This document shows positions 1-60,701 of a stretch of DNA of 64,000 nucleotides, one piece after another; the stretch's first letter is position 1, and every line of letters starts with the position of its first letter. Below the pieces are notes generated by a model. That model was not told the DNA's origin. It did no database searches and was given only the letters and a program-made list of their open reading frames with translations. Source of the stretch: Polyangium mundeleinium (GTDB lineage Bacteria; Myxococcota_A; Polyangia; Polyangiales; Polyangiaceae); NCBI RefSeq assembly GCF_028369105.1, contig NZ_JAQNDO010000001.1, positions 10,386,501 through 10,450,500 on the forward strand, written 5' to 3'. The position numbers and the translations under genes were made by a program.

Positions 1-1085
1 ATCGAAACATCTTCCTCGCCGGCTCGTACGAGGGGGCCCTCGATCTGCCGAACGACGTCAAGCTCACGGACATCGGCGGCCAGTCCGACGTGTTCGTCGT
101 GAAGCTCAACCCGGAAGGCGCGACCGTGTGGGCGAAGGGATTCGGGGACGGCTCGCAACAGCCGAAGATCGCGACGACGATCGCCGTCGACAGCCAAGGC
201 AATGCGGTCATCGCCGGCTATTTCTCGGGCTCTTTGGAGTTCATCCCGAGCCAGCCGATCAGCACGATGAGCAATCGAGACGTCTTCCTCGCGAAGCTCG
301 ACAAGGACGGCAATCCGCTCTGGAGCAAGCGCCTCGGCAACGGGGACCCGGGCGGCCCGGAGAACCGCATCCTCTGCCGCGTCGCGCTCGATCACCAGGA
401 CAACATCGTCCTGGAGACGGCCTTCACGGGCACGATGAGCCTCGGCGCGCCGCTGCCCGACGTGGCGCCCGCGGGCAGCCGCGGCATCCTGCTCGCGAAG
501 TTCGCCCCGGATGGCAAACCCCTCTGGCAGCAGGTCTTCGGCGCTGCAAATGCAGAGCAACGCAGCCGCGCTCTCGCCGTCGATTCCAAGAACAACATCG
601 TCCTCACGGGCGACATGGCCGGCACGGTCAATTTTGGGGGCGCGTCGCTCTCGACCTCGGCGACCGGCGACCCGGATCTCTTCGTCGCGAAGTTCGATCC
701 GGATGGCAAGCACGTCTTCAGCCTGCGCGCCGGCAATGGCCAACCGCAGGAAGGCAGGGCCATCGCCGTGGACGCCCACGACAACGTGATCGTCACGGGC
801 AGCTATTACGGCGTCCTCGATTTCAATACCGAGGGCACGCTCGTCGGCAGCGGGCTCGGCGGCGGCGATTACGACCTCTTCGCGCTGAAGCTCGATCCGA
901 ACGGCAAGCTCGTCTGGGCCAAGGCCTTCGGCAACGGGGACCATCAAGACACCGAGGCCATGGCCCTCGATAGCAAGGGCCACACGATCTTCGGCGGCTC
1001 GTTCGACGGGAACATCAACCTCCCGAACGTGGTGCTGACGAGCACCGGGTATGACGATATCTTCTTGATGAAGCTCTCTCCGTGA
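1..1085 (+). CDS. Beta-propeller-like secreted protein, 5' truncated by window edge
   Basis: The frame is open from base 3, so the true start and signal peptide lie outside the window. The protein is built of repeats of about 50 residues with the pattern 'D.FV.K.(D/N)P.G...W...FG' followed by 'A(I/V)D...N....G.(F/Y).G...F', which resembles SBBP-type (seven-bladed beta-propeller) repeats. At least six such units are visible. The stop codon is directly followed by a second gene encoding nearly the same protein, so this is the upstream copy of a tandem duplication. By analogy with the downstream copy it is probably an outer-membrane or surface lipoprotein. The function is unknown; no catalytic motif is seen. 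Confidence 0.8.
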   Translation, partial: RNIFLAGSYEGALDLPNDVKLTDIGGQSDVFVVKLNPEGATVWAKGFGDGSQQPKIATTIAVDSQGNAVIAGYFSGSLEFIPSQPISTMSNRDVFLAKLDKDGNPLWSKRLGNGDPGGPENRILCRVALDHQDNIVLETAFTGTMSLGAPLPDVAPAGSRGILLAKFAPDGKPLWQQVFGAANAEQRSRALAVDSKNNIVLTGDMAGTVNFGGASLSTSATGDPDLFVAKFDPDGKHVFSLRAGNGQPQEGRAIAVDAHDNVIVTGSYYGVLDFNTEGTLVGSGLGGGDYDLFALKLDPNGKLVWAKAFGNGDHQDTEAMALDSKGHTIFGGSFDGNINLPNVVLTSTGYDDIFLMKLSP

Positions 1086-1100
1086 ATGGGGGTATCCACC

Positions 1101-2618
1101 ATGGCGGCTTCCTCCTATCGTGGTATCCTTCTCGCAGGAACGGCAGCGGTCATCCTCACGGCATGCCTCTCGCTCGATACGTCGAAACCGCCGGGCAGCA
1201 CGAGCTCGTCGAGCGTGGGTGGCAGCGGCGGAGCCGGGGGGACGGGAGGCGCCGGCGGAACCGGAGGCATGGCGACCGGCGATGTTCTGTGGGGAAAGGC
1301 GTTCGGCGCTCAGTTTAACGACCAACGCGCGTCGGGGGTCGCCGTCGATCCGACGGACGACACCATCTACCTCGTGGGGAGCTACGAGGGCGACTTCTCG
1401 TTCGACGGAGCGAACAATCTGTCGAATAATGGGAGCTCGGACATCTACCTGGCCAAGTTCGATTCGACGGGCGGATTTCAATGGTCCGTCCGTTCGGGCG
1501 ACTGGCAAGACCAGTACGTCAACGCCATCGCCGTCGGGGGCGATCGAAACATCTTCTTCGCCGGCTCGTACGAGGGGGCCCTCGATCTGCCGAACGACGT
1601 CACGCTCACGGACAGCGGCGGCGGGTCCGACGTGTTCGTCGTGAAGCTCGACCCGGAAGGGGCAACTGTGTGGGCGAAGGGATTCGGAGACGGCTCGCAA
1701 CAGCCGAAGCTCGCGACGACGATTGCCATCGATTCGAAAGGCAATACGATCATCGCCGGGTATTTCGAGGGCGCGCTCGAGTTCATCCCAGGCCAGCCGA
1801 TCAACGCGATGAACAGTCGCGACGTCTTCCTCGCGAAGCTCGACAAGAACGGCACTCCGCTCTGGAGCAAGCGCCTCGGCAATGGGAACCCGGGAGAGCC
1901 ACCGAACCACCTCCTCTGCCGCGTCGTGGTCGATCACCTGGACAACATCGTCCTGGAGACGGCGTTCTCGGGCACCATGAGCCTCGGCGCACCGCTGCCC
2001 GACGTGGCGAGCTTCGGCAGTCGCGCTATTCTCCTCGCCAAGTTCGACACGAACGGGGCGCCGCTCTGGCAACAGGTCTTCGGGGCCGCGAATGCGGAGC
2101 AACGGAGCCGCGCGCTCGCCGTCGACACCAAGAACAACATCCTCCTCGCGGGTGACATGGCCGGCACCGTGAACTTCGGCGGAGAGCCGCTCTCGACCTC
2201 GTCGAACAGTGACCCGGACCTGTTCGTCGCGAAATTCACCCCGGATGGCGAGCACCTGTGGAGCCTCCGAACCGGCAGCGTCCAGCCGCAGGAGGGAAAG
2301 GCCATCGCCGTGGACGCGGCCGACAACGTGATCGTCACGGGGAGTTTCCTCGGCGTTCTTTCGTTCGGCGTGGGCGAACCCCTCGTGAACATCCAGGGAG
2401 ACGACGACCTCTTCGCGCTCAAGCTCGATCCGAACGGAAAGTTCCTCTGGGCCAAACAGTTCGGGGACAGCTCGGCCCAGGTGACCGAAGCCATGGCCGT
2501 CGACAGCAAGGGAAATACCGTCTTCGGCGGCGCGTTCGATGGAAAGATCGGCTTGGGCACCACGGAGATCTCGAGCACCGGGTATGACGATATCTTTTTG
2601 ATGAAGCTCTCCCCTTGA
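1101..2618 (+). CDS. Beta-propeller-like lipoprotein, tandem paralogue
   Basis: A 505-residue protein. The N-terminus is a lipoprotein signal with lipobox LTAC (Cys22), followed by a Ser then Gly-rich linker (about residues 30-60) of the kind common in myxobacterial lipoproteins. The rest is a series of beta-propeller-type repeats ('FVVKLDPEG..VW', 'A(I/V)D...N.I..G.F.G'). An ATG at 1086 in the same frame touches the upstream stop, but the ATG at 1101 has a GGGGG ribosome site at 1089-1093 and is preferred. The repeat region matches the upstream gene almost residue for residue. Predicted to sit in the outer membrane or on the surface; ligand or partner unknown. Confidence 0.85.
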   Translation: MAASSYRGILLAGTAAVILTACLSLDTSKPPGSTSSSSVGGSGGAGGTGGAGGTGGMATGDVLWGKAFGAQFNDQRASGVAVDPTDDTIYLVGSYEGDFSFDGANNLSNNGSSDIYLAKFDSTGGFQWSVRSGDWQDQYVNAIAVGGDRNIFFAGSYEGALDLPNDVTLTDSGGGSDVFVVKLDPEGATVWAKGFGDGSQQPKLATTIAIDSKGNTIIAGYFEGALEFIPGQPINAMNSRDVFLAKLDKNGTPLWSKRLGNGNPGEPPNHLLCRVVVDHLDNIVLETAFSGTMSLGAPLPDVASFGSRAILLAKFDTNGAPLWQQVFGAANAEQRSRALAVDTKNNILLAGDMAGTVNFGGEPLSTSSNSDPDLFVAKFTPDGEHLWSLRTGSVQPQEGKAIAVDAADNVIVTGSFLGVLSFGVGEPLVNIQGDDDLFALKLDPNGKFLWAKQFGDSSAQVTEAMAVDSKGNTVFGGAFDGKIGLGTTEISSTGYDDIFLMKLSP

Positions 2619-2646
2619 TCTCATCCCGTGGCAGGATGCGGGTTCG

Positions 2647-2987
2647 ATGCGACGACCCCTTCCCTTCCCCGGAGCCCTCCTCGTCTCGCTCCCGCTGCTC
2701 GCCGCGTGCCAGGCCGCCGCGCCGACGCCTGCCTCGTCGCCTCCCTCCGATATGGCCCCGGCGACGCCGGCGCTCCCCTTCGACCAGCCACAGGCGGCGG
2801 AGTGGACGAACGACGCCAATATCTTCACCGTCGTGCTTGGCCCGAACGGCGCCATAAGGATCGATGGGCAAGTCGTCCCGTCCGAAGAGGAGGTGCGTGC
2901 GCTGGCGAAACGCGCCCACGAGCAGGTCCCGGATGTCCGGGCCGTCATCCAGGCGGACGAGCTGACCCTGTGGAGGAGCGTCTTGCA
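2647..2987 (+). pseudogene. ExbD/TonB-like lipoprotein gene, 5' half (interrupted by transposon)
   Basis: The 5' half encodes a lipoprotein signal (lipobox LAAC, Cys21), a Pro/Ala linker, and the first part of an ExbD/TolR periplasmic domain ('VVLGPNGAIRIDG', then 'ALAKRAHEQVPDVRAVIQAD'). The domain breaks off at the codons for RSVL, where the 4.4-kb transposon begins. The missing remainder ('MDLLKQAGIEKVAFGV') is found at 7378 onward. Joining base 2987 to base 7378, keeping one copy of the 9-bp CGTCTTGCA, restores 699 bases, one uninterrupted frame of 232 residues. As it stands the frame runs on into the transposon to a stop at 3051, adding an unrelated tail. Confidence 0.88.
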
Positions 2988-2999
2988 GGTCCTGATCAA
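2979..2999. repeat. Left target duplication and terminal inverted repeat
   Basis: CGTCTTGCA (2979-2987, target duplication) is followed directly by GGTCCTGATCAA (2988-2999, left terminal repeat). An inverted TTGATCA follows at 3002-3008. Confidence 0.85.
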
Positions 3000-3104
3000 A
3001 CTTGATCAGCCGGTTCGGCGCGACGAACGCGCGCACGTTTCGGGCCGATGACCTCTCGCCGCGAACTTGTACGCCGGCACCCTGTCGAGGGTACCGTGGG
3101 CGGC

Positions 3105-3362
3105 ATGCCCCTGAAAGTATCGATCGCCACGAAGAAAGAAGACGTTCAGTTGTCCGGTCGTGAGGCCGAGACGGTCAACGCCCTCTTAGAGACGCGCTTT
3201 GACATGCTGGTCATGGGCGCGACGGTCATGGAGGAGATCCACGGCACTCAGATCATGACGACGGCGCGAGCACGGGAGTATGCGAAGGACGTGCATGAGT
3301 GGGCACGGGCTCACTTCTCGGATCTGGACATAGAGGTTCGGTTTGAGGGCGAGATGAGGTAG
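3105..3362 (+). CDS. Small hypothetical protein of the transposon (85 aa)
   Basis: An ATG at 3105 opens an 85-residue frame without a signal peptide or membrane segment. The protein is mixed alpha/beta in composition, with a Met-rich middle ('FDMLVMGATVMEEIHG') and an amphipathic C-terminal half. The frame is also open upstream to 3048, but that part overlaps the transposon end and has odd composition. It lies on the transposase strand, 347 bases upstream of it. I do not recognise the family. It may be an accessory transposition protein or cargo; coding status is moderate because the ribosome site is weak. Confidence 0.5.
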   Translation: MPLKVSIATKKEDVQLSGREAETVNALLETRFDMLVMGATVMEEIHGTQIMTTARAREYAKDVHEWARAHFSDLDIEVRFEGEMR

Positions 3363-3709
3363 CCAAGCCGAAGAGTCGCCGGAAGTAGTTCGTGTCCGCC
3401 CCGCCGACGAACACGTACCCCCGCCCGCCCGAGTCTCGCGTGTTGCTCATACCTGTGAGGATACCGACGAGACAACGTACGTCCATCCATATCGCACGGC
3501 ACGGTTGTTCCTCGGATCGACGCCCCAATCTCCGCGGGCAAACGGTCCTACCTCGGACAATTCATGTCCTAGCCTATTACCGAATAACCACGAAAACACG
3601 ACGAATCGTGATAGATTCATCCCATCGAGTGAGCCGCTGAAACGGTCGAGCCGACGACGCGCATGGGGCGCGACGCGGCACCCGTGGCGGCCCTTGCTGG
3701 GGCTTCGTC
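3363..3709. other. Non-coding stretch inside the transposon
   Basis: These 347 bases separate the 85-aa ORF from the transposase. Short frames occur on both strands but none has a ribosome site or recognisable protein. The stretch around 3540-3640 is more AT-rich than its surroundings and could hold the transposase promoter; no clear -35/-10 pair is visible. Confidence 0.4.
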
Positions 3710-4858
3710 GTGGCCAACGTCCTGCCGCTCGACAAGCGCGTGAACGTCGTTCGGCACCTCGTAGAGGGTGCGAGCGTTCGCGCGACGTCGCGGCTGACGG
3801 ACGTGTCGATCCCGACAGTCCTGTCGACCCTGCTCCGCATGGGCGAGGGGTGCGACTACCTGCACAACCTGCTCGTGAGGGACCTGGACATCCGCGAGAT
3901 CGAACTCGACGAGATCTGGTCCTACGTGCAGAAGAAGCAGGCCCGCGTGACCGCGGAGGATCCCGCGGAGTTCGGCGACGCCTACGCCTACCTCGCCATG
4001 GCCCGGACGAAGAAGCTCATGATCGCCTACCGCGTCGGCAAGCGGGACGAGGCGAACACGAAGGCGTTCGTCGCGGATCTCCGCGCGCGCCTCGTGACGA
4101 TCCCGGAGCTGTCCACGGACGGCTGGCAGAGCTACCCCGTCGCCGTCGGGCAGAGCTTCGGCGGCGCCGTCGACCACGCCGTGATCCAGAAGAACTACAC
4201 GAAGAAGGGCCGCGCGGATGGGCAGCGCCACGACCACCGCTACGAGCCCCCGCGCGACCCGTTCATCACGAAGAAGACGGCGCACGGCGCGCCGAACCTC
4301 GACCGCGCGAGCACGTCCCACGTTGAGCGCGCGAACCTCACGGTCCGGATGCACGTCCGCCGGTTCACGCGCCTCTGCAACGGCTTCTCGAAGAAGATCG
4401 AGAACCACCGAGCGGCGATTTCGCTGCACGTGGCCTGGTACAACTTCTGCCGAGTCCACGAGAGCTTGCGCGTCACGCCCGCCATGGAGGCGGGCATCAC
4501 GGATCACGTCTGGTCCGTGCAGGAGCTTGTCGAGCGCGCCCTTGCCGCGGAGCCGTGCGCGCCTCCGGAGCCGAAGAAGCTCGTGCCGCCCGCCCCGGCC
4601 CCCGGGGAGAAGCTGGGCGCCGCCCGCGAGTTGCCGAACGGCAAGGGATGGCTCCGCGTCGTCGACGGCGGGAAGGGCAAACCCAGCGCGCCACCGCGCG
4701 CTCCCACGCCGCCCACCGCGCCACAGGCGAGGGTCGGGACGGGGGAGGCTCCGCGCGAGGCTCTATCGCCTCCAGGGACGCAGCTAGACCTGTTCGCATG
4801 GCGCCCAAGACCCAAGGATGGCCTCCAACTACATCTGTTCGAGTGGTCAGATGAGTGA
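3710..4858 (+). CDS. IS1-family DDE transposase with C-terminal tail
   Basis: A 382-residue protein starting at GTG 3710. Residues 1-45 form an HTH ('ASVRATSRLTDVSIPTVLS'). The catalytic core follows IS1 order: 'ELDEIWSYVQKK' (first Asp), 'STDGWQSYP' (second Asp), 'SHVERANLTVRMHVRRF' with the Glu of the HxxE-R-N-L signature, then 'FSKKIENHRAAISLHVAWYN'. It is longer than IS1 InsAB by a Pro/Ala-rich tail from about residue 275. The tail ends in two copies of a QLxLF motif (QLDLF at 358-362, QLHLF at 373-377), which matches the sliding-clamp binding consensus. It probably mobilises the whole 4.4-kb element. No frameshift is needed, unlike IS1 itself. Confidence 0.85.
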   Translation: MANVLPLDKRVNVVRHLVEGASVRATSRLTDVSIPTVLSTLLRMGEGCDYLHNLLVRDLDIREIELDEIWSYVQKKQARVTAEDPAEFGDAYAYLAMARTKKLMIAYRVGKRDEANTKAFVADLRARLVTIPELSTDGWQSYPVAVGQSFGGAVDHAVIQKNYTKKGRADGQRHDHRYEPPRDPFITKKTAHGAPNLDRASTSHVERANLTVRMHVRRFTRLCNGFSKKIENHRAAISLHVAWYNFCRVHESLRVTPAMEAGITDHVWSVQELVERALAAEPCAPPEPKKLVPPAPAPGEKLGAARELPNGKGWLRVVDGGKGKPSAPPRAPTPPTAPQARVGTGEAPREALSPPGTQLDLFAWRPRPKDGLQLHLFEWSDE

Positions 4859-4859
4859 T

Positions 4860-5276
4860 CTATGGCTGGATAGGCGTCACAGTGGCCACCTGGGACAGGT
4901 CGGTAGCTTCGTGAGAGGCTAGCACAGCATTCCGCCGAATTTCAGCGGATATTCTTTTGTGGGACGCGAACTTGCGTCTCCACGCGACACCAAACCATAG
5001 CGTTGAAACCAAAAACAGCGCCGTCAAAGCAACGTGTACCGCAACCCGGGTTGGCGACGCGTCACTCGATGGCCACCCTAAAACACCGCCGATCATGGCA
5101 CCAAAGGCGGCTGTACAGAACGTTGCAGCGTTCTTCTCTTCGCCTGCTGCCTCCTCAAGACGGTCCAAGTCGCTCGCCATGACCTCGTATGTAACGATGT
5201 TCTTGAGCCGGTGCAACTGCACTTTCGGCTCGCGAACGTCGACTAGGCTTAGCTTCTGGGGGTCGGTGGGCGTCAT
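4860..5276 (-). CDS. Two-helix membrane protein, cargo of the transposon
   Basis: A 138-residue protein with a cytosolic N-terminal part (about residues 1-45, containing 'VQLHRLKNIVTYEVMASDL') and two hydrophobic segments at about 50-66 and 80-98, followed by an Arg/Lys-rich helix. It has no signal peptide. It lies seven bases downstream of the zinc-ribbon gene on the same strand, so the two form an operon. The topology resembles small two-helix membrane proteins of SLATT type, but I cannot assign a named family. The stop faces the transposase stop two bases away. Confidence 0.65.
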   Translation of the reverse strand: MTPTDPQKLSLVDVREPKVQLHRLKNIVTYEVMASDLDRLEEAAGEEKNAATFCTAAFGAMIGGVLGWPSSDASPTRVAVHVALTALFLVSTLWFGVAWRRKFASHKRISAEIRRNAVLASHEATDLSQVATVTPIQP

Positions 5277-5282
5277 CGAGAG

Positions 5283-5600
5283 TTAGCCCGGCTGATTGCG
5301 AAGTAGGCCCATGCTGCCTGCATGAAATTGCATTACGTACGAGCAGTTGAGACATATCACGGTAACCAGTGGGAAGGACCCGTCTACAAACTGGCTCGTC
5401 GCCGGGTGGTCATAAATCGGGGTGCAGTAAACGACGCCGAGCACACCCATATTGTTACTCTTGCACACCGGACAAGAGAGTGTGATCTTCTTGTCGTTGA
5501 ACCACTTGTTCAACTCGGTGGCATCGACTTTAATGGCAGGAATGGTAGCCTCCCGAACGCGTGTGGTACCACGTTGACACGCGCGGACAATACGGGACAA
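5283..5600 (-). CDS. Zinc-ribbon protein, cargo of the transposon
   Basis: Up to 105 residues with two CxxC knuckles: 'CPVCKSNNMG' in the middle and 'CLNCSYVMQFHAGSMGL' near the C-terminus, spaced as in a zinc ribbon. The family-like part begins at 'IPAIKVDATELNKWF'. ATG 5600 gives 22 extra, oddly basic residues. A GGGAGG site sits just ahead of an in-frame ATT near 5543, so the annotated start is doubtful. Probably binds zinc and acts with the membrane protein encoded directly downstream. Similar small zinc-ribbon proteins occur scattered in bacteria without known function, so the role is open. Confidence 0.65.
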   Translation of the reverse strand: MSRIVRACQRGTTRVREATIPAIKVDATELNKWFNDKKITLSCPVCKSNNMGVLGVVYCTPIYDHPATSQFVDGSFPLVTVICLNCSYVMQFHAGSMGLLRNQPG

Positions 5601-5693
5601 AATTCGTGCTGCTACAGTCGAACGCAGCCACGAACGGTTCGTTTGGGACGGAGGAGCAGGCGAGCGCCACCGGATTAGGCGGCGCTCGCCCGT

Positions 5694-6290
5694 TCAGCGT
5701 TTGCGCTTCCGCGTCTTCCACGTGGGGCGTGGAGCCTGCTTCGGGGCGGGGACCGCGCCGAGCTTCCGGAGGGCGGCGCGGAGCCGCTTCTCGTAAGCGA
5801 AGAACGTCGCCCGGGGTTGCCCCGCGGCGCGTGCCGCGTCGGCCCCGATGAGTCCGCGCGCGGCCAGCTCCACGACGCGCGCAACGTTCGGGTTCGACGC
5901 CACGACCCGCGCGAGCAGGTCCGCCGCTTCGATGCCGGGCATCGGGTCCGGCGAGACGAGGACCGGAACGTCCCGAAGCGCGGACGCCGGGGCCTCGTAC
6001 AGCGTCGATGCGCGTCGCGAGAGGTTCATGGCGTGGAACCACGCTGTTTGCCGTGCGAAGCCGCCGAGCGCCGCCTCGGGGGGCGTTCTCTCCCCGCCGC
6101 GGACGCGCCCCTCGTTCAGGGCCTCCCACGTCGTGATCGTCGTCTCTTGGACGACGTCGTCCGCGTGCCGCCGTTCCACGCCGATCGCGCGGACATAGCG
6201 GAGGAGCATCGGGCGTATGGCCTCGATGTCCTCCGCGTCCGCCTCAACAATCGGCGCGCCCCCACTGGGGGAGGCGCGGTACCGGATCAC
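5694..6290 (-). CDS. Sigma-70-like (ECF-type) factor, cargo
   Basis: A 198-residue protein starting at GTG 6290; the start overlaps the stop of the preceding HTH gene as GTGA. A region-2-like helix pair is visible ('ERRHADDVVQETTITTWEAL', then 'AWFHAMNLSRRA'), followed by a region-4-like HTH ending in 'FFAYEKRLRAALRKL' and a basic tail (KTRKRKR). The order and length fit an ECF sigma factor, although the region-4 helix is divergent. It is the last gene of a four-gene coupled operon with three small HTH proteins. It could redirect RNA polymerase to the element's own promoters; this is inference. Confidence 0.65.
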   Translation of the reverse strand: MIRYRASPSGGAPIVEADAEDIEAIRPMLLRYVRAIGVERRHADDVVQETTITTWEALNEGRVRGGERTPPEAALGGFARQTAWFHAMNLSRRASTLYEAPASALRDVPVLVSPDPMPGIEAADLLARVVASNPNVARVVELAARGLIGADAARAAGQPRATFFAYEKRLRAALRKLGAVPAPKQAPRPTWKTRKRKR

Positions 6291-6550
6291 GTGCTGCCCC
6301 CTCGAACCAGGGCGACGAGGTCCACGCCCACGGCGCGGGCGATCCGGGACGCGAGGACGTCCGAGCACGGGACCTCGCCGCGCAGGAACGCGCAGATGTA
6401 CATGCGGGCGAAGCCGATGGCCTTCGCTACCTCGCGCCGGGTCTTCCCCGTGGCGTACGCGGTGAGCGCCTTCCGGACGCGCGCCGCCTGTTCCGCGGAG
6501 AGGATCGCCGGGATGCTCGGCGGCTCCTGGTCGTGGTCGTGCTCGGTCAT
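6287..6550 (-). CDS. Small HTH protein C of the regulator operon
   Basis: An 87-residue protein without signal peptide. A helix-turn-helix of Xre type is visible ('TRREVAKAIGFARMYICAFL'), followed by 'LASRIARAVGVDLVALVRG'. This second motif is shared with the two upstream genes ('ARAVGLPLDDALAG' and 'ARAGGIPVEQVLTG'), so the three are paralogues. The start ATG overlaps the upstream stop as ATGA, and its stop overlaps the sigma-like start as GTGA, so translation is probably coupled. Likely binds DNA as a repressor or activator of the element; the target is unknown. Confidence 0.65.
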   Translation of the reverse strand: MTEHDHDQEPPSIPAILSAEQAARVRKALTAYATGKTRREVAKAIGFARMYICAFLRGEVPCSDVLASRIARAVGVDLVALVRGGST

Positions 6551-6870
6551 GAAGCACCGCCCTTCCGCTTCGGAGGCGTCACGAGCGAGAGGGACGGCGC
6601 CTTACGGGGCGGCGCCTTGCCCGCGAGGGCATCGTCGAGCGGGAGCCCCACGGCGCGCGCGATGCTCCTGGCGAGCGCCATGTTCCCGGGCTCCGTCCCG
6701 TCGCAGAACGCGAGCACGGTGGAGCGGCGGAAGCCAAGCTTGTGCGCGACGGCGATCCACGTTCCGTGCTCGCGGTGAAGGTGACGCAGCAAGGCGCGGA
6801 GGTTCGCCCGCTGGATCTCGATGAGGTCGGTCCCGCGAAGGGGCCGATCGCGGAAGCGGGACGCGGCCAT
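6547..6870 (-). CDS. Small HTH protein B of the regulator operon
   Basis: A 107-residue protein. The ATG at 6870 overlaps the upstream stop as TGATG and is preferred over the longer frame from 6906. It contains 'WIAVAHKLGFRRSTVLAF', an HTH in the position equivalent to the neighbours, then 'LARSIARAVGLPLDDALAGK', and a basic C-terminus ('PPKRKGG'). It is a paralogue of the genes on either side and is probably a DNA-binding regulator. The three differ mainly in length of the N- and C-terminal tails. Confidence 0.65.
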   Translation of the reverse strand: MAASRFRDRPLRGTDLIEIQRANLRALLRHLHREHGTWIAVAHKLGFRRSTVLAFCDGTEPGNMALARSIARAVGLPLDDALAGKAPPRKAPSLSLVTPPKRKGGAS

Positions 6871-7202
6871 CACGACGCGCCTCCCTTCCGCCCGCAGAGA
6901 GCGCACGCGCCCGCGACGTGGGGACGCCCGGTGAGGACCTGCTCCACGGGGATGCCGCCTGCGCGGGCGACCAGCACGGCGACGGCGTAGGACGCCTGCT
7001 GCCCGGCTCGGATGAGCGTGGCGCGGTGGATCCCCACGACCGCGGCGAGGACGTCAACCCCGCCATAGGCGCGGGCGATGTTGCGGATCGTGGCGCGGAT
7101 CCGCCGGCGTTCTTCGGACGTGGGGAGGAGAGCGGGGCTCTTCCGGCCGGAAGGCGGACGAGTCCCTTGGCCCCGCGGCGCGGGGTGGACTAAACGAAGC
7201 AT
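6870..7202 (-). CDS. Small HTH protein A of the regulator operon
   Basis: A 110-residue protein and the first gene of the four-gene operon that runs inward from the right end of the transposon. It has a basic N-terminal tail, then an HTH ('VLAAVVGIHRATLIRAGQQA'), 'VARAGGIPVEQVLTGR', and a C-terminal 'CALCGRKGG', a lone CxxC. The exact start is uncertain, because the first 30 residues are Pro/Arg-rich and a later start is possible. The 160 bases upstream to the transposon end must carry the operon promoter. Confidence 0.6.
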   Translation of the reverse strand: MLRLVHPAPRGQGTRPPSGRKSPALLPTSEERRRIRATIRNIARAYGGVDVLAAVVGIHRATLIRAGQQASYAVAVLVARAGGIPVEQVLTGRPHVAGACALCGRKGGAS

Positions 7203-7356
7203 CGGGTTGCGACTCCGGGTTACGGGGTTGCGGCCAAGTCGCCCCGGGGGTTTGCAGACCCTTCGGGGCGGCGCCTTTTCCAGGCCCGCCGAACCTACGC
7301 GCCGAAATCGCTATTCGCTACGGCCGAATGCCGAACTTGATCAGCTCGGCCCTATC

Positions 7357-7377
7357 TTGATCAGTACCCGTCTTGCA
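7357..7377. repeat. Right terminal inverted repeat and target duplication
   Basis: TTGATCAGTACC (7357-7368) is the complement of the left terminal repeat with one mismatch. It is followed directly by the second CGTCTTGCA (7369-7377). Confidence 0.85.
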
Positions 7378-7735
7378 CACGATGGACCTCCTGAAGCAGG
7401 CCGGCATCGAGAAGGTCGCGTTCGGCGTGGCCAAGCAAGACCAATCGAGCGGCAACATGCCGCCCCCCATAAATCCAGGGAACAACGTTTGGGACTGCAA
7501 ATTCCCAGCAGCGTCCGATGCGGCGGGGATCGACGACGCCATCGTCACGCTGACGGTCTCGGTGGCCGCCAACGGATCCCCGGAGTGGGTGCAGATCGTG
7601 AGCGATCCGGGTTATGGGTTCGGCATGGTCGCCGCGCAATGCGCGATGGCGAGAACGTATTCACCCGCGCTCGACAAAGACGGCCGGCCGATGGCGGCGA
7701 AGACCCCGCCGATCCGGGTCAGGTTCGTCCGATAG
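7369..7735 (+). pseudogene. ExbD/TonB-like lipoprotein gene, 3' half
   Basis: This is the continuation of the gene begun at 2647. It first encodes the end of an ExbD-type domain ('MDLLKQAGIEKVAFGV'), then about 90 residues that resemble a TonB C-terminal domain: a 'VTLTVSVAANGSPEWVQIVS' strand pair, 'DPGYGFG', a conserved-looking Ala/Cys helix and a final 'PPIRVRFVR'. The first nine bases (7369-7377) are the right copy of the target-site duplication. Before disruption the gene would have made one lipoprotein combining ExbD-like and TonB-like domains. The TonB assignment is from motif resemblance only. Confidence 0.82.
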
Positions 7736-7799: not shown

Positions 7800-7990
7800 A
7801 ACCCGATCCCCTGTGGGGGATCACCGTCCGGACCGGGGGACTGTACGATCGGATACGGGGGATCACTTGCCGGACCGGGGGGATCACTTGCCGGACCGGG
7901 GGGATCACTTGTCGGGACCGGGGGATTGTACGATCGGATACGGGGATCAGGTTCCGGGAGGGGGGGATCGACGTCCGGGAGCAGGGGACC
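7800..7990. repeat. Short tandem GGGGGATCA repeat cluster between convergent genes
   Basis: Between the ExbD 3' fragment and the hotdog gene lie repeated units of about 20-22 bp: GGATCACTTGCCGGACCGGG occurs twice near 7861-7903 with a third variant (CACTTGTCGGGACCGG) directly after. A longer unit containing GTACGATCGGATACGGGG occurs at about 7843 and again at about 7928. Related GGGGATCA motifs flank these. GTACGATCGGATAC is partly palindromic. No protein-coding frame fits. The flanking bases (7736-7799 and 7991-8014) show nothing else. Confidence 0.6.
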
Positions 7991-55991: not shown

Positions 55992-57546
<1,555 letters not shown>

Positions 57547-57736: not shown

Positions 57737-59247
57737 CACTACTCTGCCATCCTGACCGACCCTGCCCGCGACCTGACGCGTGCCGAGCTTGATCTACGGC
57801 CCTTCGTGGTCTGCCGTGGCGAAAAATTTGGCCCAGCGTCTTCCCTTGCGCTGGTTTGCCCGCGTGACCGCCGTCAAACCCACATTCGAGAGTGACGAAC
57901 TTCCTGAGGAACACTGGGAGCGCGAGTTCGAGCACTGGTTTGCACCGTTCCTGCACGAGTTCGGCTACCCGTCCCAGCAGAAGTGGGGCCGGTCTACCTA
58001 CGTGGGCTGCTCGGGCCAGGCGACCGCAAGAGCATCGAGCCGATGGCCGCGCGAGTTTGCCCAGGTGAGACGCAGCAGCTTCACCCCTTCATCTCGACCT
58101 CTCGCTGGGACACGGCCGGGCACGAGCGCGTGCTCCTCGAGAAGGCTGGAGCGCTCGTCGGCGGCAAGAACGCCCACCTCATCATTGACGACACCGCAAT
58201 TCCAAAGAAGGGAACGCACTCGGTCGGCGTCGCGCATCAGTACTGCGGGCAACTCGGCAAGAACGCCAACTGCCAGGCTCTCGTCTCCATCACGCTTGCG
58301 CGTGACGAGGTGCCCGTCCCGGTCGCGCTCCGGCTTTACCTCCCGAAGGAATGGGCGCGCGATCCAGAGCGACGGCGACGCGCGAAGGTACCCGAGGACG
58401 TGGTATTCCGGACGAAGTGGCAGATCGCGCTCGCCGAGATCGAGCGCATCATGCGCAGCGGCATCGAGTTCGGCGATGTCTTGGCGGACGCGGGGTACGG
58501 CGCGTGCGCCGCGTTCCGGCGTGGGCTTTCGGAGTTGAAGCTGAAGTGGGCAGTGGGCGTGAATCCGAACCAGCTCGTCTATCCGAAGTCCGTTCGTGTG
58601 GCCGCGCCCGAGCGAACACGACCAGGCGGGCGTCCGCCAAAGCGTGGGAAGGTGTCGGCTGCTCCGAGGAAGGCGCAGGAGGTATTCTCGACGCGCGCAA
58701 AGAACGGCTTCAAGGAGGTACAATGGCGTGACGGGACGAAAGGCCCGCTCTCCGCGTCGTTTGCCGCCATCCGCGTGCGTGTGGCTGATGGGCCGAAGGT
58801 CATCGGACACAATCGTGGGCCAGGCGAAGAAGCCTGGCTCGTCTGCGAAAAGCGCGCGAACGGCGTGCGGAAATATTACCTTTCGAACTACCCGCCCGAC
58901 ACCGAACTCGGAACGCTCGCCTCGGTGATCAAGGCGCGCTGGGCTTGCGAGCAAGCACATCAGCAGATGAAAGAGGAGCTCGGACTCGACCATGTCGAGT
59001 GCCGCTCCTGGCACGCGCTGCATCATCACGCGCTCCTGACGATGATGGCCTTCGCCTTCCTTCAGCACCTACGCAACGCCGAAAAAAACGCTTGGGCACA
59101 GCGGCCCACCGCCTGAACCGTCGCTACCGGAGATCCGGCGGCGACTGATTCAAAGGCTCGCTGCGCCCATGAGATGCGCGCGGTGCGGAGCGACGGTGCG
59201 GGCGCTCGTGCCGATATGAAGGTGTGGTTGGTGGTGGCAGAGTAGTG
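57737..59247. mobile_element. IS701-type insertion sequence (1,511 bp)
   Basis: Terminal inverted repeats CACTACTCTGCCA (57737-57749) and its complement TGGCAGAGTAGTG (59235-59247) are perfect over 13 bp. They are bounded on both sides by CTAG (57733-57736 and 59248-59251), a 4-bp target duplication as known for IS701 elements. The one gene is a frameshifted DDE transposase. The right end abuts the IS1182-type element. Confidence 0.8.
57864..59116 (+). pseudogene. IS701-family transposase, one-base frameshift
   Basis: GTG 57864 starts 'KPTFESDELPEEHWEREFEH' and 'FGYPSQQKWG'; a missing G in the run near 57987 shifts the frame to the long remainder beginning 'GPVYLRGLLGPGDRKSIEPM'. This contains DDE-type blocks 'KNAHLIIDDTAIPKKGTHSV', 'GDVLADAGYGACAAFRRGLS' and 'ARWACEQAHQQMKEELGLDH'. 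With the base restored it would be about 417 residues, normal for the family. It could also be a sequencing error or a programmed shift. Confidence 0.75.
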
Positions 59248-59251
59248 CTAG

Positions 59252-60701
59252 CAGCCCGTGGATCTATGCGACAACAATCGCGATCCCGACATAGCGCACC
59301 TGACTCGGGCGCATCCCGGGAGAATCGTGCCAATTGCCTCGACATGCCTCGCGCCACAGTCGCCATGGCTGCCCATATCACCAAAACGGCAAGGGCGAAG
59401 CCCTTCCGGGCCGCGGCCAGGCCTCGCGGGGTCCCTGCGCCGAGGATTTTGCGGAGTACGAACCCCAAGTTGAGCGCAGCGACATGGGCCAGGTAGCGTT
59501 TTCGCACGTTCTCCCGGCCCCTGACTCGGCCCCTTCTCATTCCGCCCGTCTCGCATGCATGCGCGAATGTTCGCTCGATGAGTTCTCCGCGTTTACGTTG
59601 AAGTGCGCGACCTTTCGGACGACGCACGCGGTATCGATTTCCGTAAAACGCTTGCTGCATGTCCCAGCCCTTGTCTCCCCACTTGCGGACGGACTGGCTC
59701 CTCTCTGGGACATAGGTGCGGTAGCCGGACTCCTTCAACGAGAGGAGCAGCTTGGCCTTGTGATACCCCTTGTCCGCCACGACCTCGATCACGGCCCGCT
59801 CGAGCTGCACGTCGCCGCTGCCGCCTCCCGGCGGTGGTACATCGTCCGAATCACGCTCCTCGCTGTCCTTCGCCTGCTCGACGTTCGCGCGCGCCTGCTC
59901 CAGGCTTTGCACCATCGTCGCCGGGTCAGCGTGGTCCGCTGAATAGACCTCTGCTGCGACCACGACGCCCGTGCTCATATCGACGACATGTTCGGTCTTG
60001 TAAGCCAGTCGCGTGCGGCCATCCTTGAGTTTCGTGATGCGGGCATCTTCGTCCGTGGCGCTTTTCCAATCCTTGTTCGACGTCTTCTTGCCCTTGCGCT
60101 TCCGGTCGAGCCGACGGGCATCCTCCACGGTCAGATTCTCGATGCCTTCCTCTTTCGCCAGCCGCTTGATGAAGTCCGCTTACACCTCGCCCGTTTCACG
60201 CCGCACGATCGCCTTCATCGAGGCATCCGAGCGCAGATACGCCGAGTCCACGCCCATGACTTTGCCCTGGAGAAGCCCGGAGCGATTGACCACCCCGAGC
60301 ACGAACGCGAACATCGCCTCGAAGACCTCACTGCCGAGGCGCTTGCGCATCTTGGACAGTGTCGAATGATCGGGCACCGTTTCGCCCGGCAACAACCCGA
60401 GAAACTCCCGCAGGGCCAGCGAGTCCGAGCATCGCCACTCGAGCCCGCGCTCGGACTCAATCCCCTCGAAATAACCGACCAGCAGCATCCGAAAGTAGAG
60501 CCCCAGCGCGATCGACGGCCTGCCCGCCGTCCCGTCGGCCTCGAAGTACTTCGCGCACGCCGCCTCCATGGCCCGGTCAAACCCGTTCTCACGCAGAAGA
60601 TCGTTCAGCTTCTCGTAAAACCGGTGCCCCGGCGACCGCGGCAGCGAAGGCGCTGCCACCCAGAGCGGCGCCTGCTTCTCCTGTCTTCGACCCATCGACA
60701 T
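59252..60701 (-). pseudogene. IS1182-family transposase with internal stop
   Basis: ATG 60701 starts the N-terminal half ('HRFYEKLNDLLRENGFDRAM', 'ALREFLGLLPGETVPDHSTL', 'GKVMGVDSAYLRSDASMKAI'). A TAA at 60182-60180 interrupts the frame at 'RRETGEV', and the same frame then resumes as 'ADFIKRLAKEEGIENLTVED' and 'KTEHVVDMSTGVVVAAEVYS', 'VVADKGYHKAKLLLSLKESG', 'RTFAHACETGGMRR', 'LNLGFVLRKILGAGTPRGL'. A TAC-to-TAA change would explain the stop. The frame has no stop inside the element and runs into the IS701-type DNA, so the C-terminus may also be damaged. Confidence 0.78.

Follow-up and report, generated by a model that had tools for sequence, protein, structure and literature searches.

The subject of this analysis is the transposon at positions 2988-7368 of a 64,000-nucleotide stretch of Polyangium mundeleinium DNA (contig NZ_JAQNDO010000001.1, positions 10,386,501 to 10,450,500; this whole stretch is the window in what follows), together with the related elements delimited in Polyangiaceae, most of which are inserted in tandem arrays of helically phased repeats. 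The window element has 12-bp inverted ends that agree at 11 of 12 positions, and it is bounded by an exact 9-bp direct repeat, CGTCTTGCA. It splits a gene with an ExbD-like and a TonB C-terminal part, whose reading frame is rebuilt once the element and one repeat copy are deleted in silico. The joined flank of 600 bp aligns without a gap, and with 562 of 600 positions identical, to the same gene, intact, in another Polyangium genome (G148). It is because of this gapless empty site, and not on the strength of the ends alone, that mobility is shown: the window element is a real transposon. The features of the locus are listed below (aa, amino acids; ORF, open reading frame; HTH, helix-turn-helix; ECF, extracytoplasmic function).

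2647..2987, + strand: 5' part of the host gene, ExbD-like (weak Pfam match, E 0.021)
2979..2987, no strand: left copy of the 9-bp target duplication CGTCTTGCA (exact direct repeat)
2988..2999, + strand: left terminal inverted repeat GGTCCTGATCAA (end search)
2992..3009, no strand: dyad CTGATCAA-AC-TTGATCAG in the left end (read from the sequence)
3048..3362, + strand: ORF of 104 aa, no assigned function, in the left variable region (ORF reading; the gene-call script starts it at 3096)
3710..4858, + strand: IS1-like transposase, 382 aa (Pfam, NCBIfam, alignment)
4781..4795, + strand: QLDLF codons, first predicted beta-clamp-binding motif of the transposase tail (motif consensus in the available parts of PMC4549789 and PMC5371812)
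4826..4840, + strand: QLHLF codons, second predicted beta-clamp-binding motif of the tail (same motif consensus)
4860..5276, - strand: 138-aa protein, probably membrane-bound (hydrophobic stretches judged by eye), in the variable cargo slot (ORF reading)
5283..5600, - strand: 105-aa zinc-ribbon-like protein (CPVC and CLNC pairs, by reading), in the variable cargo slot
5694..6290, - strand: ECF-sigma-like protein, 198 aa, group-conserved operon (clustering, Pfam, fold model)
6287..6550, - strand: HTH-a, 87 aa, XRE-like (HTH_31 E 4e-5, under the cut-off), group-conserved operon
6547..6870, - strand: HTH-b, 107 aa, group-conserved operon (profile comparison)
6870..7202, - strand: HTH-c, 110 aa, with a conserved C-terminal CxxCG, found in some subgroups
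7337..7344, + strand: subterminal repeat TTGATCAG, 20 bp from its copy in the right end (read from the sequence)
7357..7368, - strand: right terminal inverted repeat, TTGATCAGTACC in + strand letters, reverse complement GGTACTGATCAA (end search)
7369..7377, no strand: right copy of the 9-bp target duplication CGTCTTGCA (exact direct repeat)
7369..7735, + strand: 3' part of the host gene, TonB C-terminal domain (Pfam, 24.2 bits, just under the cut-off of 24.6)
7815..7968, no strand: 21/42-bp repeat array, 447 bp from the window element

Eight ORFs lie between the ends, the transposase and seven others. The transposase exceeds the cut-off of PF03400 (DDE_Tnp_IS1; 39.9 bits against 24.1) and stays below that of NF033558, the curated IS1 model of NCBIfam (E 1.2e-18, 67.8 bits against 100). 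Its candidate DDE triad, D67, D137 and E206, is invariant across 30 aligned relatives; judged by profile and alignment, the protein is IS1-related. The three HTH proteins are paralogous: the profile of HTH-b matches that of HTH-a at E 1.2e-7 (hhalign), and HTH-b matches the HTH-c copies of sister elements at E 1.2e-8 at best, the window's own HTH-b/HTH-c pair giving E 8.7e-4. The window's sigma-like protein, taken by itself, falls just under the Pfam cut-off (22.8 bits against 24), and its family contains Sigma70_r2 in 14 of 24 members and Sigma70_r4_2 in 10 of 24. A fold model of the sigma-like protein, with a mean pLDDT of 71, has ECF sigma factors as its best PDB matches; two of these reach E <=0.001 (best E 2.2e-4), and the TM-scores are low, ~0.3. 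By domain content and fold model, the operon's sigma-like protein is of ECF type over its family. In its own genome it has no match beyond the three close element copies. (Other Polyangium genomes contain sigma-like matches, at L174 and L177-L181, with no transposase detected; each may be a remnant, a non-autonomous copy or simply an ordinary ECF sigma factor.)

A first-pass annotation of this DNA, made from its letters, had proposed 12-bp GGT ends with a 9-bp duplication, in-frame restoration of the host gene, an IS1-like transposase with seven further genes, three paralogous HTH proteins and a sigma-like factor. All of these hold, the transposase with the qualification that it lies under the NF033558 cut-off, and the comparison with empty sites in relatives that the annotation suggested has the gapless outcome described above.

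The element group and its operon

The genome of P. mundeleinium contains six homologous transposases, two close ones among them belonging to elements (L007 and L008) with the same end type and 8-bp duplications. In a survey of 183 genomes of the order a transposase match is found in at least 26, including six Polyangium and five Sorangium genomes (a sixth Sorangium genome has no transposase match); counts per genome are lower bounds, at most ten candidates of each having been scored. Elements were delimited by GGT...ACC ends together with an exact duplication of 8-10 bp. When the right half is reversed as a control, 8 of 12 end positions match in 32 of 720 cases, and 9 of 12 in none of the 720 (an earlier control of this kind gave 28 of 740 at 8 of 12). 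The 44 related elements delimited in this way (40, then four more), which come from four Polyangiaceae genera, all match at 9 of 12 end positions or more. Their lengths are 2730-7030 bp, with a median of ~4.5 kb, and their duplications are 8 bp in 43 cases and 9 bp in one, that of the window. (In this count the L074 element, reached from both its transposases, figures once; E44 is removed as a duplicate of E43; E01, with ends at 9 of 12, is included; and L185, also at 9 of 12 and with arrays present, is excluded.) Ten transposases are without resolved ends: L009, L011, L043, L051, L052, L056, L057, L062, one in L070, and L071.

Gene clustering of the first 40 elements (calls were made with a simple composition script, and the four later elements stand outside them) places an HTH cluster in 34 elements and a sigma-like cluster in 28; an 83-aa partner protein is found in 8 of the 40, mostly the small ones. 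Cargo is under-called in this clustering, since the script missed the window's membrane and zinc-ribbon genes. The operon is mostly convergent to the transposase, starting near the far end and with its ORFs overlapping; in a minority of elements it lies upstream of the transposase and runs in the same direction. At the DNA level, the window element, L007 and L008 align, besides their ends, solely in the transposase and operon regions, and differ in the left part and the middle; the left variable region with its 104-aa ORF differs between sister copies. Dyads similar to that at 2992..3009 are present in the left ends of several Polyangium subgroups. These comparisons mark as conserved two ends of IS1 type, a QLxLF-tailed transposase and, in most elements, an HTH operon that often has an ECF-sigma-like gene; the variable cargo is the DNA between transposase and operon and the DNA to the left of the transposase. 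The operon looks like the core of the element; the membrane/zinc-ribbon pair occupies a variable slot that is filled in many different, unrelated ways.

For the zinc-ribbon gene, a search of 108 genomes of the family gives a close match solely in its own genome. The gene does not recur in the other five Polyangium genomes, and the 108 give three weak matches (31-34%), in a search that did not extend to the membrane protein. The cargo of L007 is a DinD-like protein (NF008573, E 9e-52, 176 bits, below the model cut-off of 242); that of other elements includes RadC (L044), a ParA-like ATPase (L046) and Bro-N proteins (L049 and L053; below cut-off). A defence role for the cargo was considered and set aside: among ten proteins scanned, PADLOC matched solely the DinD-like protein of L007 (PDC-S13, E 5e-62) and gave nothing for the window pair or seven other cargo proteins.

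The first-pass annotation also considered the case that the whole set of genes recurs with the same ends. Recurrence is seen for the regulator operon; the set with the membrane/zinc-ribbon pair does not move as a unit. The annotation's suggestion that the transposase be searched for in myxobacterial genomes yields the 43 further elements, with duplications of 8 rather than 9 bp. Chance nested insertion is not the origin of the arrangement, because the operon recurs between ends of the same type with clean duplications. Ends placed tightly around a transposase, with the cargo absent, are not seen among the 44. Shorter candidates occur among distant relatives: L123 (1476 bp, with a short transposase) and, on weaker evidence, L091 (1751 bp) and L128 (1026 bp).

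The operon can also be thought of as cargo like any other, an independent module of regulatory or defence-like kind carried along in the spread of one transposon lineage. Its make-up does vary by subgroup (a sigma and XRE set; HTH117 with the 83-aa protein; Sorangium variants), and 24 distant relatives, described below, are elements lacking gene clusters 2, 3 and 4. On the other hand, the operon adjoins one end in most elements despite the divergence of their transposases, and in its own genome the sigma-like protein is confined to the three close elements. That the operon is mere cargo is, on balance, unlikely.

Insertion into phased tandem arrays

When the flanks of each element are joined, 29 of 40 empty sites lie inside tandem repeats (as detected by Tandem Repeats Finder), compared with 7 of 390 positions drawn at random from these loci. 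All four elements added later are in phased arrays, which brings array insertion to 33 of 44, and each of the 33 array sites has at least one period within 20-23, 41-45, 62-66, 83-88 or 125-130 bp. Array periods, as read from the repeats, are ~21 bp or multiples of it, that is, two helical turns and multiples. For two other transposase families in the genus, a phased array is present anywhere in the fetched locus in 2 of 43 loci. (The corresponding Fisher p values are 3e-33 for the comparison with random positions and 4e-12 for that with the loci of the other transposase families.) Phased arrays amount to 586 of 95,956 noncoding bp (0.6%) outside the elements in the same loci. The background arrays of these loci number 91 in 492 kb; thirteen have a period of 21 bp, one a period of 63 bp, and none a period of 22, 41-44 or 83-88 bp.

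One 21-bp array family, followed by pattern search through six genomes, has 22 loci (grouped manually), 8 of them at an element; the same pattern read backwards has no locus in the six genomes. An unoccupied array of this family lies near 1.77 Mb in P. mundeleinium's own genome. The locus L078 (G152:C15:114000-133999) has a single 21-bp array with three diverged elements next to one another, each having CTACGACG as its duplicated 8-mer, and at one orthologous array locus two species carry two different elements (E25 and E41) between flanks that are 92% and 82% identical. A 21-bp array is also found near the empty site in L183, and a phased array lies at most 0.8 kb from the transposase in five of the ten cases without resolved ends (L009, L051, L052, L056 and L062). 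In the Sorangium arrays at L050, L053, L046 and L048, inspected by eye, two palindromes seem to alternate ~21 bp apart in a unit of 41-43 bp.

Palindromicity is higher at the insertion point than at the offsets next to it (mean rank 0.79 for 42 sites and 0.75 for 33 distinct duplications), a preference for dyad centres with a Kolmogorov-Smirnov p of 4e-7. For 14 of 44 insertions the duplicated 8-mer is shared with another insertion; counted on either strand, TGTCGAGA recurs five times in Sorangium, CTACGACG four times, CGCCCACG three times and AGACGTCT twice. Target regions are also inclined to fold, with a median z of -1.68 (n=43) compared with -0.20 (n=149; p 2e-5). A consensus of target sequence was sought and rejected: the 38 sites compared have only a slight, symmetric bias towards CG in the middle, C at -6 and G at +5. 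The earlier reading of the window is in sum partly supported; homing to phased arrays, the most unusual trait of these elements, was unforeseen in it.

Elsewhere in the window, two adjoining ORFs just upstream of the interrupted gene (90-1085 and 1086-2618) encode strongly similar proteins. Two opposed DDE_Tnp_1 (IS4-type) transposase genes lie at 58466-59050 (+ strand) and 59466-60032 (- strand), the former with an equal score for another place in the same genome, and a tmRNA gene (tag ANDNAYALAA) lies at 55992-56337.

How arrays may be chosen

The transposases of the group end in a tail of ~100 residues that is absent from distant relatives. Near the end of this tail is a QLxLF-type motif, in 42 of 44 elements by a loose and 37 of 44 by a strict definition, the latter against 0.07% of shuffled tails; none of 24 selected distant relatives has the motif. 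The beta-clamp binding consensus, in the available parts of PMC5371812 and PMC4549789, is QL(S/D)LF or QLxLF. Clamp- or hairpin-guided targeting is the preferred mechanism, and an unproven one. In outline, the tail would dock on the replication beta clamp, insertion would take place where phased dyads, by forming hairpins, expose or stall the fork, and array insertion tied to forks in this way would provide landing sites of low harm. The HTH and sigma proteins may control the element's own transcription, and perhaps its transposition, from the terminal dyads. The window copy would then be an off-array event close to an array. The explanation as a whole (a cargo-carrying, IS1-related Polyangiaceae group that has its own control operon and is guided to phased arrays by clamp or hairpin) is held to be somewhat more probable than its negation. 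A bolder version of it is put forward tentatively, and may well be wrong: targets would be chosen by DNA architecture and not by sequence, with a clamp-bound transposase, possibly joined by HTH proteins, reading at hairpin-stalled forks those dyads that are spaced by two helical turns or a multiple of this, and diverged members of the group would converge on the same register of unrelated arrays.

Several points weigh against this explanation. Clamp binding is predicted from a short motif alone, and beta-clamp-type motifs are, according to the available parts of PMC4549789, present in the transposases of many families. An orientation bias like that of Tn7/TnsE was not found, 7 of 14 elements being co-directional with the fork (the terminus is assumed to lie opposite dnaA, and the power of the comparison is low). 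Two tailed members from other genera, E18 and E31, are outside arrays, and a tail-less relative, L243, is inside a 42-bp array. (Of tail-less relatives in the same order, 16 loci were fetched and 7 have ends; 1 of these 7 is in an array.) Since the tail, the operon and the use of arrays all follow one lineage and two host genera, a causal link among them is confounded with descent. A tendency to fold is missing from several of the targeted arrays, among them the CTACGACG family used by four elements. No array is present at 11 of the 44 resolved sites (E08, with a right flank of 14 bp only, is one of them), and the window's own element interrupts a gene, the 21/42-bp array lying 447 bp away. 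The period classes were fixed after the first 40 sites, and the independent check consists of the four later elements, all of which fit. The random-position control and the noncoding estimate are both drawn from loci around elements, not from whole genomes.

Part of this evidence is open to a different account, in which the arrays are operators of a host DNA-binding dimer that recruits the transposase, or else one of the element's HTH proteins, and neither clamp nor hairpins take part. Dyads approximately two helical turns apart, as read from the flanks, resemble cooperative-dimer arrays; diverged elements reuse an exact 8-mer; and the absence of fold tendency from several targeted arrays is in keeping with tethering to protein. 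The array families are unlike in sequence, on the other hand, so one sequence-specific protein could hardly serve all of them, and tethering by a host dimer is considered an improbable alternative to clamp or hairpin guidance. That insertion is near-random, and elements mostly persist in arrays as the least harmful places, is very improbable: 31 of 41 sites are indeed outside predicted coding sequence (as given by a rough caller), but 33 of 44 insertions are in phased arrays that make up 0.6% of the noncoding bp in element loci, two other transposase families of the genus rarely have such an array in their loci, and harmlessness explains neither dyad centring nor the reuse of one 8-mer.

Relation to known systems

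Typical IS1 elements are ~0.7-1.2 kb long and contain transposase genes only, and members of the ISMhu11 subgroup of IS1 in ISfinder extend to ~4.6 kb. The Polyangiaceae elements resemble the IS1 family in their PF03400-type transposase and, in all 44, in their GGT-type ends (GGT being demanded by the search) and 8-9 bp duplications. They differ from it in having an operon and cargo within 2.7-7.0 kb (even the smallest, at 2730 bp, falls outside the compact IS1 size), in a transposase that scores under the NF033558 cut-off and consists of one long ORF with a C-terminal tail, and in homing to phased arrays.

IS1-type transposases accompanied by extra genes are, by sequence similarity, widespread beyond myxobacteria. 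Distant IS1-related elements (L090-L127 and L235-L237), most of them 2.1-4.9 kb, come from metagenome-assembled genomes of Acidobacteria, Deltaproteobacteria, Verrucomicrobia and others, and from alphaproteobacterial plasmids. The 24 used here are taken from 26 loci, from L090 on, that have ends by a looser GG...CC rule; L091 (9 of 12) and L128 (a partial match) were left out. Their transposases are ~38-48% identical to those of the group, and they share mostly GGTAGTG-type ends, 8-bp duplications and extra unrelated ORFs. L235, L236 and L237, on plasmids of Hoeflea, Acidiphilium and Mesorhizobium, are 2.6-4.2 kb long; their GGTAGTG-type ends are perfect or nearly so, their duplications measure 8 bp, and they too include extra genes. 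The three plasmid transposases are annotated as IS1 family. (The cargo of L101, whose element spans 228-4239, and of L096 and L121 reads as XRE-metallopeptidase-like, ATPase-like and thymidylate-kinase-like.) In contrast to the Polyangiaceae group, these distant elements have a shorter transposase without the QLxLF tail; none of the 24 is inserted in a phased array, one being in a 16-bp repeat; and operon clusters 2, 3 and 4 are absent, with one weak match to cluster 0.

Insertion sequences (IS) that carry passenger genes are an established concept, the tIS (PMC7986276, in its available part). As in tIS, ends and transposase of IS type enclose unrelated passenger genes in the Polyangiaceae elements. 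Unlike an incidental single passenger, these have a conserved operon and a variable slot over dozens of copies, and a specific target architecture. Among the matches listed in the open-licence literature, available in part, there is no description of IS1-type cargo transposons of myxobacteria or of IS homing to phased arrays. An operon-bearing group that homes to helically phased dyad arrays was thus not found described, and the targeting principle is possibly new.

Bacterial transposons have to insert without killing their host, and on the question of how small DDE elements find such places the 44 elements form a natural data set, in which spacing and dyad are shared by most landing sites while the letters differ. 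The group also presents IS1-type transposases as cargo vehicles, with a conserved operon of control genes, in the large genomes of myxobacteria. A review proposes, in its available part, that arrested forks may guide transposons to safe havens (PMC5371812), an idea that the array-homing group makes testable. Tn7 TnsE and clamp-binding IS (IS1634, IS608) are similar in having a QLxLF-type motif and a proposed choice of target that is tied to replication (PMC5371812 and PMC4549789, each in its available part). In the Polyangiaceae group, by contrast, the motif sits in an IS1-type transposase, the 14 elements compared have no orientation bias, and the targets are arrays rather than termination regions. 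IS1397 and IS621 insert into the palindromes of repetitive extragenic palindromic sequences and bacterial interspersed mosaic elements (REP/BIME), each recognising one repeat sequence. Insertion into repeated extragenic palindromic DNA is common to these IS and to the Polyangiaceae elements, whose arrays, in contrast, vary in sequence and have in common their ~21-bp phasing and the dyad.

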